Shown here piece after piece: positions 54,035-60,231 of a stretch of 64,000 bases of DNA. A program made the translations under genes and the position numbers. Numbering within the stretch: position 1 is the stretch's first letter; each line of letters starts with the position of its first letter. The stretch lies in the NCBI RefSeq assembly GCF_901538265.1, contig NZ_LR593886.1:5787738-5851737 (forward strand), in the 5' to 3' direction. This DNA is from Gemmata massiliana (GTDB lineage: Bacteria > Planctomycetota > Planctomycetia > Gemmatales > Gemmataceae). Below the pieces are notes generated by a model. The model was not told the origin of the DNA. It ran no database searches and saw nothing but the letters and a program-made list of their open reading frames with translations.

Positions 54035-56062
54035 ATGAACCGAGCACCCGAAGCCCTCCAATCCGCGTCGCGCGCGTGCCCCACCCCGGCCGAACTCGCC
54101 GCGTTCCTTTCGGACGAGTTGCCCGCGCCCACAATGGACGAGATCGGGGCACACGTATCGAGCTGCAAGTCCTGCGACGCTGCGGTGCGCCGAATGGATG
54201 AGGTGACCCACTCGAAGTTCCGAAAGCCGGCGAGATCGTCTCAGAACAATGTCGGCCCGAGTGACCCTACCCTGCCCGACTACCCTCACGTGCTCGCGTC
54301 GAGCCGCTCGCTCCCGCCCACACAGGTCCACTACGTCGTACCCAAGCCCCCGGAGCGCCTGGGACAGTACCGGATCATGGAGCGCCTCGGCCAGGGCGGG
54401 ATGGGTACCGTGTACCGCGCCGAACACGTGCGCCTCAAGAAATTCTTCGCGGTCAAAATCCTGTCCGCGAGCCAGATGTGGGACCACCGCGCGGTAGCCC
54501 GGTTCCAGTTAGAAATGGAAGTGGTCGGGCGCCTGGACCACCCGAACATCGTCCGGGCCACCGACGCGGGCGACGCGGACGGGTTGCACTTCCTCGTAAT
54601 GGAGCTGATCGAGGGCTCGAACCTCGCCAAGCTCATCGGCCGGTGCGGACCGCTTTCGGTTCCTGTCGCGTGCGAACTCGTGCGCCAGGCCGCGCTCGGA
54701 CTTCAACATGCGCACGAAAACGGCCTGGTTCACCGGGATGTCAAACCGTCCAACCTGATGCTGTCCACGAGCGGACAGGTCAAAGTGCTGGACCTCGGGT
54801 TGGCCCTGCTCCGGTCCAACGATCCGAACTCGAACGACGAGCTGACCGGGGCCGGCGAGGTGATGGGCACGGCCGAGTACATGGCCCCGGAACAGTGGAC
54901 GAACACGCACGCGGTGGACATCCGCGCCGACATCTACAGCCTCGGCTGCACCCTGTACGCCCTACTCGCGGGCGCCCCGCCGTTCTCCGGGGTCGAGCGC
55001 AAGACGTTCATGCGCCTGATGACCGCGCACCAAATCGAGGCCGCACCGCCGATCACGACCCGCCGGCCCGACCTCCCTGCGCCACTGGTCGAGATCCTCG
55101 ACCGGATGCTGGCGAAGAACCCGAACGAACGACCGGCGACCCCGGGAAAGGTCGCCTCCGCGCTCAAGGGCCTGTCGGACGAACGCGGGCTGTCCAAGTT
55201 GTCCGGCCTGTCCGGGTCCGGTGCCGAATCGAACGACCTCTCTGCTTCCGAGACACCGACGTCGTTTTTCCCTGCTACGGTGAAGATCCAACCGCGCCCG
55301 AAGCGGCGCCGGCGCCGCTGGATTGCGGCTCTGGCGTTGGTGTTCCTGATCGCTGGAATCGGCGCTTACACCACGTTCACGCCTGCTCCAATACCGAATC
55401 AAGCGAAAGAGCCACCGCCACCAGACCTACCGCACGACCCAAAGAAATGGCGAAACCTCCTGACCGCTCAGCCCACGGAACGCCTGTGGCGCGCCAGTCA
55501 AATCGCGTTCTTCGACTTCAACCCCAAGAAGGAACTCCTTTCGGTACGGTCACCGAGTAAATCGCTGCTCCGACTCGGGGAAACACAAGCGAAAGGGTAC
55601 AAGCTCCAGGTCGGGCTCCGACAGGTGACCTGGGAAGGTGGTGTTGGTATTTACTTTGGCGGCGGTAGCCCGTCCCAGGAACCGAACGAGTTCCGGTGCC
55701 AGCTCATCCACCTCGTACACGTTGGGCTCCCCGGAAACGCGGCCAAATACTCGCTGTCGCGCTCGCGCGGCAATCTCGTCCGGCTCGCCGATCAAAGACC
55801 GGATCTGCAAGTGTGGGGATTTTCCGGAACGCCCGTCGCGTCTCCCGGCCCCAAGGAACACCTCTTGGAACTCGAAGTGCGTCCGGAGTGTGTCTGGAGC
55901 ATCCGGTGGGACGGGGCCGAGTGCTCGGAGATGACCAACGAATTCGCACTTAGTCAGCAACGACGGATGCTGCCCGACCCGCACCTCATGGGGGAATACG
56001 GGATCTACTGCAACGGCGCCGATGTGTCGATTTTGACTGCCCGGTACATAGAAACGGAATGA
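54035..56062 (+). CDS. Ser/Thr protein kinase with zinc-finger and jelly-roll tail
   Basis: A 675-residue membrane kinase. Residues about 12-55 carry an anti-sigma-like zinc finger (His40, Cys44, Cys47). The kinase domain spans about 111-380: GQGGMGTVY glycine loop, Lys141, catalytic HRDVKPSN (Asp235), and the magnesium site DLG with Asp253 in place of DFG. A single helix lies at about 429-447. The extracytoplasmic tail (about 460-675) is beta-rich, with features of the DUF1080/LamG jelly roll (VGIYFGGG, LLELEVRPECVWSIRWDG). It could sense a ligand outside and phosphorylate inside. It leads a co-directional run of four genes. Confidence 0.9.
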   Translation: MNRAPEALQSASRACPTPAELAAFLSDELPAPTMDEIGAHVSSCKSCDAAVRRMDEVTHSKFRKPARSSQNNVGPSDPTLPDYPHVLASSRSLPPTQVHYVVPKPPERLGQYRIMERLGQGGMGTVYRAEHVRLKKFFAVKILSASQMWDHRAVARFQLEMEVVGRLDHPNIVRATDAGDADGLHFLVMELIEGSNLAKLIGRCGPLSVPVACELVRQAALGLQHAHENGLVHRDVKPSNLMLSTSGQVKVLDLGLALLRSNDPNSNDELTGAGEVMGTAEYMAPEQWTNTHAVDIRADIYSLGCTLYALLAGAPPFSGVERKTFMRLMTAHQIEAAPPITTRRPDLPAPLVEILDRMLAKNPNERPATPGKVASALKGLSDERGLSKLSGLSGSGAESNDLSASETPTSFFPATVKIQPRPKRRRRRWIAALALVFLIAGIGAYTTFTPAPIPNQAKEPPPPDLPHDPKKWRNLLTAQPTERLWRASQIAFFDFNPKKELLSVRSPSKSLLRLGETQAKGYKLQVGLRQVTWEGGVGIYFGGGSPSQEPNEFRCQLIHLVHVGLPGNAAKYSLSRSRGNLVRLADQRPDLQVWGFSGTPVASPGPKEHLLELEVRPECVWSIRWDGAECSEMTNEFALSQQRRMLPDPHLMGEYGIYCNGADVSILTARYIETE

Positions 56063-56143
56063 CCGACCTCGGCCCGCGTCGAACCACGGCCAACAGATCC
56101 AAGGGCAATTTTGCATCTGTTTCACTTGAAATTCGGAGTAACC

Positions 56144-56629
56144 GTGCAGATCCAGTGCCCAACGATTAACATGAACGTCCTGGTTAGCGGGACCGGTTCG
56201 GGTTCCGGCTCGTTTCCTGGCGGGACGATCTGCGTGCGCGGATCTACCGGCGACGGTGATACCGCGGGATCGTTACCGCTGACTGTACGAGTGCGTGTGG
56301 TCGCGGGACACGTTCCACCGGTAGGATCAGCGGAGCCGAAGCAGACCTACGACGTAGACGTTACCCCCGTCGGGGGACAGTGGTGCGCGACCGGCGTACC
56401 GGTTGCTGGATCCACCCCCGCGGGGGTGCCACTCACGGCACTCGCTTGGCTCCGCACGGGACCGTCCTGGAGCGGGCCGGACGGCGTCTGGTTCTATGGC
56501 GGCGGCCCCAACCCGACGGGTTGCTGCCCGCCCCCCCCCCTCGAACAATCCGCTCCCGGTGCCATCGCCGGAGCGTTCCAGGGCTGGCCTCCTCCTCCCC
56601 CTCCACTCCCTTCCGACATCACAGGATAA
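56144..56629 (+). CDS. Gly/Pro-rich hypothetical protein with C10 tract
   Basis: I do not recognise this 161-residue protein. The start is GTG at 56144, six bases after GGAG; a TTG at 56111 is less likely. The N-terminal half is rich in Gly, Ser and Val (SGTGSGSGSFPGG) and beta-like. The C-terminus is proline-rich (PPPPLEQ, then a WPPPPPPLP run). A homopolymer of ten C residues at 56531-56540 codes part of the first Pro run; length change there would alter the reading frame. There is no clear signal peptide. It sits 81 bp after the kinase and 89 bp before the glycosyltransferase. Confidence 0.65.
   Translation: MQIQCPTINMNVLVSGTGSGSGSFPGGTICVRGSTGDGDTAGSLPLTVRVRVVAGHVPPVGSAEPKQTYDVDVTPVGGQWCATGVPVAGSTPAGVPLTALAWLRTGPSWSGPDGVWFYGGGPNPTGCCPPPPLEQSAPGAIAGAFQGWPPPPPPLPSDITG
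56531..56540 (+). repeat. Homopolymeric C10 tract in coding sequence
   Basis: Ten consecutive C residues lie inside the Gly/Pro-rich gene. Tracts of this length are prone to slippage. Adding one C would place the upstream frame in register with the open frame of the next gene, which has no stop codon between them. Confidence 0.7.
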
Positions 56630-56718
56630 CGAGCGTGTTCATCGCGGCCTCGTGCCGCGCCGAACGTCCCTCCACCGCGGCGCATGGAGCCGTGGTCCGT
56701 TTTTTCTTTGCCCAAACA

Positions 56719-59220
56719 ATGCCAACGTTACCGTATTTCGGGCTGTACGTCGTTACGTGTCCAGGGCGCGAGGCCGTTTTGGAACGGACCCTCGCCTCGA
56801 TCCGTGCGAGCGACTGGCCCGGCGCGCCCGTCGTATTGCGCCAGCCCGTGGACTGGCCGGTCGGGTGGGAGAGTACGTCGCGGATGTACCGCACGGTCCT
56901 CCAGCGCGCGTGGGAGGACGGGTGCTGGTGGGCCGTGGTACTCGAAGACGACGTACAGGTGAACCGCCACCTGTGGGCGAACCTCACGCGCTGGCACCCG
57001 ATCACAACGGGCCAGCTCCACTGGGGGAGCCTGTTCATCCCGGACACGATCCACGACCCGTGGGCGCGCACGTGCCCGGAACTCGGCTACCGACTCGCCC
57101 GCCCGGCGCTAACGACCGGCCCGAACGCGCAGTGGCAGAAGGCCCGTTTGTGGGGTTCACAGGCATACGTGTTCAGCCGCGGCGGGCTTAGCGTCATGCT
57201 CGATCGGTGGGACCGGCACGGCGGCGGACAGGACGCCCGCGCGGTCGCGATCGCTGGGGGCGCGGGCTGGCCGCTCTGGTACGCGAGCCCGTGCCTCGTG
57301 GAGCACGTCCCCGTTATCAGTGCGTTCGGCACCCCGCCGGCCTACGCCCCGGACTTCGTTCCCGACTTCCGCTTTGCCCCCGAACCGTCCGGTACCTACC
57401 GACACCCCGAAGGGATACCAGGGTGGTTGAGCTTCGCCGAGGGACAAACTCTCTGGGAACTCGCACGCGATAAACGGGTGCTCGAACTCGGCCGGTTCCG
57501 CGGGCGCAGCACGGTCGCGCTGGCGCAATCGGCGCGCGAGGTCGTTTCCGTCGACGTTCTCGACCCCGCGCACGCGGCGGGCTGGCTCGAACGGTTCGGC
57601 TGTCCCCCAAACGTCACTCTCCTCCAAAGCCGTTTCGCCGAACTCGATCCGCGCCTCAATCCCTTCGACCTCATTTTCGTGGACGGGGAACGCGACGCGG
57701 CGAACGTCCACGCGGACGTTGAACTCGCACTCGCACGGCTCGCGCCGGGCGGGTGCCTCGCGTGCCACGGCTACCCGGACCCGGACTGGCCCGACGTGCG
57801 CCGGGTCGTGGACGAGGTCGCCTCGGCGCGCGGATTGTGGCGCGCGCGCCAGTCAGATTACCTCGCGGTCTTTCGGGTCTCCGACGCCGCGCGTCCACAA
57901 GAGATACCGGAACTAACGCCCCTAATCGCGGCGCCGGTCAGCTCGCCCCCGACGGAGACGATTCCCACTCCCCGCACCGTGTGGGTGTATTGGGAAGGGT
58001 CGATGCCGGGGTACATCGAACTGTGTTGCGAAACGATTCGCACGCACAACCGACACATTCGCGTTGAAGTGCTCGACCGGGCCGGATTCGATGCCCTGTT
58101 CCTCCGCGACCGTGACCTCCCGATCGACGCACTGATCCTCCCGCACAAGGCGGATTTCATTCGCGCGTACCTGCTCGTCCACTACGGCGGGCTGTACCTC
58201 GACGCCGACTGCGTTGTGCTGAATAGCCTGGATTTTGCGTTCGATCTAGCCGACACCACCGGGTTCGTCGGGTACCGCGACCCGCTCGGGTACATGAGCG
58301 CCAGTTTCATGGTCTCGGCGCCCGGTGGAGCTGTGATCCGGGACCACTACGAGCGCGTGTGCGCGGTCCTCCGGTCCCGGCACGAACGGGGTTGGCTCGA
58401 TCTGTCGTCGGTGCCACTGGACCAAGCCGTCACCGCGCACCCCGAGCGGGCACACGTCCTGCCCACGGAGCGCATCATGCCCATCTCCTGGCAGGCGAGC
58501 GAGCGCCTGAGCGAGCGCCACCCGGACGCCGTTCACGAGCTTTCGTTCCGCTCCGACGCGGCGATGTACATGCTCTCAAACAATACGATCAAGAGCCGGC
58601 GCGCGACCCGCGTGCTCGCGCACATGCCTGCCGCCGATCTGCTGGCGGACAGTTATTTCCTCTCGTTCCTGTTTCGCCGCGCGCTGGGGCGCCCGCAACT
58701 GGTGCCGGAAATCAAATACGCATACAGCACCGACCGCGAAACCGAAGAGTTCGATGAAGGAGCACTCGATTTCCTCGCGGGGCGGTTCGGGGCACGAACA
58801 CTGATCGATGTGGGATGCGATTCACCCGAAACAGTCTACCGTGCCAAGCACAAAGGTATCCGGGCCGTCGGCGTGTCCGGCGACCCGCGGGTTGCACGCG
58901 ACTGTCAGGTCATCATCGAGCACGACTACACCCGTAAACCACTGTTCGCGGGCGAATTCGATCTGGGTTGGTCAATAAGTTTTATCAAACACATTGAGGA
59001 ACGGTTCGCCCCAAATGTAATGGCAACGTTTCAGGACTGTCGCATCGTCTTTGTGGCCGGAACTGGCTCCGCGGCGGAACGTTGGATCGAACTACTTCAC
59101 CAAACAGGATTCGCACTCGACACGGACGCGACGGAAGGTGTGCGCCGGCATTCGACGGTGGAAGGTGGGACCACGCGAACAACGGGACTCGTCTTTCGGC
59201 GCGGCGAGAGCACGGGGTGA
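56719..59220 (+). CDS. Four-domain glycosyltransferase/methyltransferase
   Basis: An 833-residue protein with four recognisable modules. Residues about 5-215 look like a glycosyltransferase (VVTCPGREAVLERTLASI, then VVLEDDV with the acidic cluster at 76-78). Residues about 245-390 are a class I methyltransferase (VLELGRFRGRSTVALAQSA, VSVDVLD, FDLIFVDGERD). Residues about 418-600 are a GT32-type glycosyltransferase (HKADFIRAYLLVHYGGLYLDADC, DxD at 495-497). Residues about 690-833 start like a second methyltransferase (TLIDVGCDSPETVYRAK). ATG at 56719 is chosen; the longer upstream frame is not protein-like. Likely role: modifying and methylating a surface glycan. Confidence 0.85.
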   Translation: MPTLPYFGLYVVTCPGREAVLERTLASIRASDWPGAPVVLRQPVDWPVGWESTSRMYRTVLQRAWEDGCWWAVVLEDDVQVNRHLWANLTRWHPITTGQLHWGSLFIPDTIHDPWARTCPELGYRLARPALTTGPNAQWQKARLWGSQAYVFSRGGLSVMLDRWDRHGGGQDARAVAIAGGAGWPLWYASPCLVEHVPVISAFGTPPAYAPDFVPDFRFAPEPSGTYRHPEGIPGWLSFAEGQTLWELARDKRVLELGRFRGRSTVALAQSAREVVSVDVLDPAHAAGWLERFGCPPNVTLLQSRFAELDPRLNPFDLIFVDGERDAANVHADVELALARLAPGGCLACHGYPDPDWPDVRRVVDEVASARGLWRARQSDYLAVFRVSDAARPQEIPELTPLIAAPVSSPPTETIPTPRTVWVYWEGSMPGYIELCCETIRTHNRHIRVEVLDRAGFDALFLRDRDLPIDALILPHKADFIRAYLLVHYGGLYLDADCVVLNSLDFAFDLADTTGFVGYRDPLGYMSASFMVSAPGGAVIRDHYERVCAVLRSRHERGWLDLSSVPLDQAVTAHPERAHVLPTERIMPISWQASERLSERHPDAVHELSFRSDAAMYMLSNNTIKSRRATRVLAHMPAADLLADSYFLSFLFRRALGRPQLVPEIKYAYSTDRETEEFDEGALDFLAGRFGARTLIDVGCDSPETVYRAKHKGIRAVGVSGDPRVARDCQVIIEHDYTRKPLFAGEFDLGWSISFIKHIEERFAPNVMATFQDCRIVFVAGTGSAAERWIELLHQTGFALDTDATEGVRRHSTVEGGTTRTTGLVFRRGESTG

Positions 59221-59265
59221 GAGCGTCCTATCGGAGCGAAGTCACATCGCATCCGGAGGTGCCCC

Positions 59266-60231
59266 GTGCAAATCACGAACAGTGAGGGCTACAGTTACGA
59301 ACCGGTCCGCGCCGTCGGTCACGCACCACCGTACCCTGCGGACCTGGTCGCCAAGTCGAAGGAGTTGCTCACCGCCACGTGCGGGCTCTTCAAGCGGTTG
59401 GGACCGGTCGCACACGTCGTTCCGCACGTGTTCGCGAAGTACAAGGTCCACGCCGAACGAGCCCGAACCGGTGCCGCGGTGATCGGGGTAGAACCGGTCG
59501 ATCTTCTGGCCGCGAACCTGTGCTACGACCTGCTGATGGGCGCGAGCGCAATGGGGTGTTCGACCCTCGCGCTCGCGGGACCGGACGGACCGGTGCTCGC
59601 GCGAAACATGGACTGGTTCCCGGCCGAGAAGGTCGCAAAGGCGAGTTGCCTGGTAACCGAAGAGTACGGCGTGAACGCTGGTTTCCTCGGCATGTTGGGC
59701 GCGGTCACGGGTCTATCGCGTCACGGGTTCTGCGTGTGCCTGAACGCGGCGTTCGGCGGCTCGGACCCGGACGGCTACCCAATGCTCCTGTTTCTCCGGC
59801 ACGTCCTCGACACCGCAACAAACTACCGCACGGCCCTCGAAATGGTCACCACCGAGCGGCTCATGTCCGGCGGCATCGTTACCGTTGTGGGTACGCGAAA
59901 CGAGGAACGCGCGATCGTCGAACGTGCCCCGCGGCGCGCGACCGTGCGCGAGGCCCGGGGATCGGAACCGTTGCTCGCAACCAATCACTTCCGCGACCTG
60001 AACGCGCCGGAAGAGTGTCCGCGTTACGCGCACATGGCCGCGTTCGTGGGTCAGGTCCGCCCGCTGGACCTCCTGACGGGCAAGCACGTTCTCCAGGAGA
60101 TCACCGCGCAGCACGTCGTGATGTGCCCGGCCACGCAGACCACCGAAATGTTCGTCCCCAGTCACTTGCTCCCCGAAATCGTGTGCGAAGAAATGACACT
60201 CGCCGACCTGTACCGCTACTTCCTGAATTGA
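59266..60231 (+). CDS. Ntn-hydrolase, acid-ceramidase/choloylglycine-hydrolase-like
   Basis: A 321-residue cytoplasmic protein. MGCSTLALAGPDGPVLARNMDWF contains the probable nucleophile Cys98 and the RNxDW motif (113-117) seen in acid ceramidase, NAAA and related amide hydrolases. These normally cut themselves before the Cys to become active; no signal peptide is present. LNAAFGGSDPDG and NHFRDLNAPEE supply further conserved polar residues. The start is GTG at 59266, five bases after a perfect GGAGGT. It is 45 bp behind the glycosyltransferase, so probably co-transcribed. The amide substrate is unknown. Confidence 0.78.
   Translation: MQITNSEGYSYEPVRAVGHAPPYPADLVAKSKELLTATCGLFKRLGPVAHVVPHVFAKYKVHAERARTGAAVIGVEPVDLLAANLCYDLLMGASAMGCSTLALAGPDGPVLARNMDWFPAEKVAKASCLVTEEYGVNAGFLGMLGAVTGLSRHGFCVCLNAAFGGSDPDGYPMLLFLRHVLDTATNYRTALEMVTTERLMSGGIVTVVGTRNEERAIVERAPRRATVREARGSEPLLATNHFRDLNAPEECPRYAHMAAFVGQVRPLDLLTGKHVLQEITAQHVVMCPATQTTEMFVPSHLLPEIVCEEMTLADLYRYFLN

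Follow-up and report, generated by a model that had tools for sequence, protein, structure and literature searches.

The Gene Run and Its Features

The window, by which we mean the whole stretch of 64,000 nucleotides analyzed here, comes from the genome of Gemmata massiliana, a member of the Gemmataceae with 10.1 Mb on a single contig. We refer to this genome as G000, to its relatives by codes of the form G0xx, and to the neighborhoods fetched from them by codes of the form L0xx or L1xx. Four open reading frames follow one another on the + strand with gaps of 81, 89, and 45 bp, at the coordinates that an earlier note on this DNA had given:

54035..56062, + strand: Ser/Thr membrane kinase (Pfam Pkinase; zf-HC2 below threshold; transmembrane helix from hydropathy)
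55319..55381 (aa 429-449), + strand: predicted single transmembrane helix (hydropathy 2.12; preceded by RRRRR)
55442..56059, + strand: C-terminal concanavalin-type jelly-roll domain (AlphaFold2 model, structural neighbors, HMM)
56144..56629, + strand: Ig-like partner, the "Gly/Pro-rich" protein (seven-strand sandwich model; homologs only directly 3' of such kinases)
56585..56611, + strand: conserved WPPPPPPLP motif at the partner C-terminus (alignments A1 and A4)
56674..56703, + strand: terminator-like hairpin of 8 pairs, then TTTTTT, between genes 2 and 3
56719 (ATG)..59220, + strand: fused glycan enzyme (GT-like module, Methyltransf_24, GT32-type DXD module, weak second methyltransferase)
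59266..60231, + strand: C45-family Ntn acyltransferase/amidohydrolase (NF040521 match; a neighbor outside the cassette)

All genes tested against the relative G090 are under purifying selection, with dN/dS of about 0.06-0.2; for the Gly/Pro-rich gene, dN is 0.012 and dS 0.20. The start of the glycan enzyme was set at ATG 56719 since the alignment with homologous proteins begins at that Met, which rules out the alternative starts at 56635 (GTG) and 56380.

The Receptor-Like Kinase

The first gene encodes a Ser/Thr kinase that matches Pfam PF00069 with an E-value of 1.3e-51 (176 bits) and in which the VAIK-type lysine (K141), the HRD motif (H233-R234-D235), and the metal-binding aspartate (D253) are invariant (alignment A2). 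The N-terminus carries an anti-sigma-like zinc motif, C15 and H40xxxC44xxC47, whose four residues are invariant across seven kinase homologs; the zf-HC2 profile (PF13490) scores 16.9 bits in this region, below its cut-off of 22.2 (E 0.007). The Arg-rich stretch that precedes the single membrane helix predicts a topology with the kinase domain inside and the C-terminus outside.

The outer domain was described in the earlier note as a jelly roll, and this holds on the AlphaFold2 model (pLDDT 76.5, pTM 0.77). Its best structural match is CBM66 (Z 16.7, rmsd 2.5 over 157 residues), with the DUF1080-type structures 3hbk and 8rr2 scoring lower (Z 12.8-12.9) and with thrombospondin C-terminal and galectin-like proteins among the further neighbors; the Pfam DUF1080 profile has no match to the window kinase at E 0.05. 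Many of the best structural neighbors are carbohydrate-binding or carbohydrate-active, a likeness of fold that is no proof of sugar binding in itself. The most likely ligand of the domain is a carbohydrate, either from the cell envelope or from the surroundings. A broader profile of the outer domain has matches in 48 of 397 Planctomycetia genomes, spread over five families.

The Ig-Like Partner

The Gly/Pro-rich protein, which the earlier note had left unclassified, does lack any Pfam or NCBIfam match, and a Pfam search of the partners from outside the window was likewise negative. Its model is a seven-strand Ig/FnIII-like sandwich of moderate confidence (pLDDT 69, pTM 0.65) followed by a disordered, low-complexity tail; matches to the PDB are weak (best Foldseek E 0.009), with FnIII domains among the top ones. 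The tail varies from genome to genome and may be poly-Pro, Ser-Gly, or poly-Ser, with CC-GSGSG also found among partner tails; in G080, the WPPPPPPLP motif is replaced by Ser-Gly repeats. Long poly-Ser runs also close the partner-like proteins of L153, L155, and L157, and Ser-Gly repeats stand at the end of that of L061.

Hydropathy reveals neither a signal peptide nor a transmembrane helix in the window partner. Some other partners are membrane-anchored (L119, L152, and L157), and in these, positive charges follow the helix; under the positive-inside rule, the Ig part would then lie in the cytoplasm. The window partner, too, most likely stays in the cytoplasm.

Kinase and Partner as an Inseparable Pair

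Each of genes 2-4 was searched in 91 Gemmataceae genomes, the neighborhoods of the matches were fetched, and all parts of the run were mapped onto them. The partner-family profile identifies 15 loci in 13 of the 91 genomes, all directly 3' of a match to the kinase C-terminal domain. Conversely, the kinase C-terminal profile yields 16 strong loci, 15 of which are paired with a partner, while the sixteenth (G086) stops at the contig end. With an additional pair in G091, which makes the 16th kinase-partner locus of the family, every Gly/Pro-rich family locus in the Gemmataceae (16/16) immediately follows, on the 3' side, a kinase that carries this C-terminal domain. The two genes are 81-136 bp apart in four loci that belong to the same genus as the window genome, and -4 to 17 bp apart in 9 of the 13 loci measured, where the frames often touch.

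The pair extends beyond the family. An iterated partner HMM, applied to the 6067 six-frame ORFs of all loci, returned 25 matches, all of them kinase-adjacent genes (25/25), including five from other families (L141, L144, L148, L151, and L158). An earlier, first version of the partner HMM, applied across the phylum with 9 candidates scored per genome, had found Gemmataceae only; it was too strict, and the search by kinase domain later added partners. Outside the Gemmataceae, the kinase is in most fetched neighborhoods closely followed by a gene on the same strand. The remaining proteins encoded next to the kinase are too diverged to be called homologous; they look similar, belong to no known family, and in some cases end in poly-Ser tails. 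A partner of this kind is missing for at least one distant kinase, that of L160.

An unbiased clustering of the ORFs within 4 kb of 39 kinase loci, in which antisense clusters represent shadow ORFs of the same genes, recovers the partner on the same strand and immediately 3' in 18 loci, and a further partner-like family in three. The same clustering places glycosyltransferase or methyltransferase (GT/MT) genes 3' of the kinase in 13 loci, with a second kind of GT in three, and ECF sigma genes immediately 5' in seven. We conclude that the kinase and its partner form an inseparable pair, one that other families of the class have as well. A related-locus search with a tighter set returned four named loci, from Gemmata sp. 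IIL30, two MAGs, and one metagenome-binned bacterium.

The window genome also contains a second, distant cassette (G000:C1:4750022-4753720, or L119:3022-6720) composed of a kinase, a partner-like protein with an N-terminal transmembrane helix, and a CRHRG-type glycosyltransferase. It has orthologs in G066 (L116) and G090 (L120), and the kinase frame of the latter looks truncated.

An Exchangeable Glycan Enzyme

The third gene had been read as a protein with two glycosyltransferase and two methyltransferase modules. One module of each kind is confirmed by Pfam, namely Methyltransf_24 (E 1e-14) and Gly_transf_sug with its DXD motif (E 1e-7); the second methyltransferase stays below threshold (18.1 bits vs a cut-off of 21.2) and the first glycosyltransferase module has no Pfam match, so that these two are putative. 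The long, four-module form is found in G000, G090, and G066, and a three-module form in G043, while G033, G051, and probably G070, where the contig ends, have the first GT-like module and Methyltransf_24 alone. A homolog of the first GT-like module also occurs in G033 among what look like phage genes (L094:8801-9466).

Elsewhere, the position is filled by other enzymes. In G023, G010, G032, and G049 (twice), the partner is followed by Mannosyl_trans3-type glycosyltransferases, some of them fused to methyltransferases, and the downstream kinds overall comprise Mannosyl_trans3, FkbM, Methyltransf_24, Stealth_CR2 (weak), GT2, GT4, and radical SAM. A GT/MT gene of one kind or another stands directly after the partner in 11 of the 15 assessable Gemmataceae loci. 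None follows the pair in G080, G085, G091, or the second pair of G033 (G033:C2), so the enzymes are dispensable to the core. The conserved core is therefore the kinase with the Gly/Pro-rich protein, to which the glycan enzyme adds a third, exchangeable element.

Two features of the downstream genes deserve mention in their own right. Many cassette glycosyltransferases (L060, L089, L090, L091, L118, L119, L144, and L151) share a Cys/His-rich N-terminus, CRHR...RC.SP...C..C, that has no Pfam match and resembles a module for metal binding or substrate recognition. In L151, the gene after the glycosyltransferase is of the radical SAM kind (L151:5737-6600), a hint that the chemistry on peptide or sugar goes beyond glycosylation.

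The succession of partner and enzyme raises the question of whether the Ig-like protein could be a glycosylation acceptor, with its tail decorated by the downstream GT/MT enzymes and the kinase only regulating the process or sensing its product. The Ser-Gly tail in G080, the poly-Ser tails in L153, L155, and L157, and the CC-GSGSG tails would suit such a role, as would the chemical diversity of the GT, MT, and even radical SAM genes downstream. However, the four Gemmataceae pairs without an enzyme, and several more outside the family, have no neighboring gene to do the decorating, the window tail is mainly poly-Pro, and the partner carries no export signal. We regard the acceptor role as fairly unlikely.

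The Ntn Hydrolase as a Recent Neighbor

The fourth gene product, called acid-ceramidase-like in the earlier note, is more precisely a member of the C45 acyltransferase family. It scores 111.5 bits against NCBIfam C45 (NF040521, cut-off 85), its sole Pfam family is AAT (E 1e-12), and among structures it matches 2x1d (E 0.0016), whereas the NAAA structure 6dy3 reaches an E-value of 0.62, which does not qualify it as an acid ceramidase/NAAA. The candidate nucleophile is Cys98 (59557-59559, context GASAMGC98ST). With a score above the curated cut-off and this candidate cysteine, the protein resembles the C45/AAT Ntn acyltransferases (NF040521, PF03417; 2x1d), but the window hydrolase stands outside the conserved cassette.

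This last point bears on the unit that the earlier note had proposed, a single operon in which all four genes, the hydrolase included, serve a joint function. The shared strand, the short gaps, and the order kept in G090 and G066 speak for it. Yet the Ntn gene lies beside the glycan enzyme only in these two genomes and in the window genome; close orthologs in G043, G084, G085, G088, G089, and others are located away from any kinase-partner pair, and the clustering around the 39 kinase loci shows no recurrence of the Ntn gene. When the gene order is followed through other Gemmataceae, kinase and partner remain side by side and the hydrolase is scattered, which was the outcome the earlier note had named as telling against its proposal. 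The four-gene operon is rejected as the unit, and a joint function that includes the hydrolase is very improbable; the Ntn hydrolase is a recent neighbor and not a member of the cassette. What survives of the proposal is a conserved system with a jelly-roll membrane kinase and glycan enzymes, whose unit is not these four genes.

Transcription Signals and ECF Sigma Genes

The hairpin in the second gap is a further argument against the four-gene operon. Its stem is kept in G090 through a compensatory pair change, and nothing clearly corresponding is seen in G066 or G043. The hairpin scan as a whole gave 8 hits vs 5.7 expected, which is not significant, and it is therefore the comparison between the window genome and G090 that carries the weight. 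The hairpin suggests that a transcript of genes 1-2 by themselves is possible, and it argues against one uninterrupted transcript of all four. A search for promoter-like sites gave no strong one in the gaps; its one match in the whole stretch equals the number in shuffled sequence.

In seven relatives (L060, L061, L089, L112, L141, L154, and L160), an ECF sigma gene lies directly 5' of the kinase, while the window kinase has none beside it and so does not form an ECF/kinase pair. Together with the zinc motif of the kinase, these genes point to a possible transcriptional branch that would be missing in cis at the window locus. They also lend themselves to another explanation, in which the pair is a generic stress or envelope signaling unit with ECF sigma output, and the glycan enzymes are independent neighbors in a glycan-rich region. 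The terminator-like hairpin before the enzyme in G000 and G090, and the minority of loci without enzymes, are in keeping with this; against it, the GT/MT genes that follow the partner in most Gemmataceae loci are of non-orthologous kinds and too frequent for chance. We consider a generic unit of this sort unlikely.

A Model for the Cassette

The reading that we favor, with a probability of roughly 0.5, is that the kinase is a receptor for glycans, has a cytoplasmic protein as its dedicated partner, and is coupled to enzymes that modify glycans. What has been observed is the gene pairing, with its depth and specificity, the jelly-roll model, and the enrichment of GT/MT genes on the 3' side and of ECF genes on the 5' side; the ligand, the phosphorylation of the partner, and the control over glycan modification are inferred. 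The steps may be pictured as follows:

(i) The kinase would span the membrane once, with the outer jelly roll binding carbohydrate.

(ii) The inner Ser/Thr kinase domain would relay the signal.

(iii) The Ig-like protein, with its Ser/Gly- or Pro-rich tail, would be the dedicated partner of the kinase and is probably its phosphorylation substrate or an adaptor for the enzymes.

(iv) The partner may control the activity of the downstream glycosyltransferases and methyltransferases, or their acceptor, and through them the modification of glycans.

(v) In some members, an ECF sigma gene placed 5' of a kinase whose N-terminus has the anti-sigma-like zinc motif may provide an additional output.

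A bolder version, which we put forward as possible but doubtful, would be a class-wide lectin-type receptor kinase system in which a phosphorylated or glycosylated Ig-like partner steers exchangeable GT/MT enzymes, and by which the cell would monitor and remodel its own coat.

Relation to Known Systems

Plant lectin receptor-like kinases combine a lectin-type ectodomain, a transmembrane segment, and a Ser/Thr kinase; the likeness is one of analogy, with no evidence of a common descent of the architecture. Closer to the window, DUF1080 is reported to be the commonest of the domains that are restricted to the periplasmic side in planctomycete single-span Ser/Thr kinases (PMC11032199). These STK-TM-DUF1080 kinases likewise have the kinase inside, one transmembrane helix, and a concanavalin-type jelly roll outside, whereas the window domain lacks a Pfam DUF1080 match, and the passages of PMC11032199 consulted here name no partner protein or downstream enzyme cassette. 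Pairs of ECF sigma factors and Ser/Thr kinases are also known; the review PMC8103513 cites an ECF factor of Xanthomonas citri with its cognate kinase, as well as the phosphorylation of sigma factors. The seven relatives with an ECF gene directly 5' of the kinase resemble them, but the window kinase has no adjacent ECF gene, and it also has an anti-sigma-like N-terminus and the gene of an Ig-like partner next to it. Conflict systems use lectin-fold sensors as well, but of other folds, and no such cassette appears in the passages of PMC8195603 consulted here.

In agreement with the earlier note, which knew of no described system with this set of genes, we encountered neither the partner family nor the cassette in the literature searched, a body that is not exhaustive. 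In this locus, a known receptor-kinase layout goes together with a partner that is deeply conserved and, within that literature, undescribed, and probably with a new output.

To our knowledge, hardly any Ser/Thr kinases of the Gemmataceae have known partners. About 100 or more such kinases are encoded per genome in this family (PMC11032199), and one subfamily now gains a dedicated partner and a likely output, glycan modification, in a gene order conserved across families. Since the partner is dedicated and the order conserved, a kinase-substrate test is directly possible. The cassette would also explain, in part, the use that Gemmataceae kinases make of their lectin-type outer domains.
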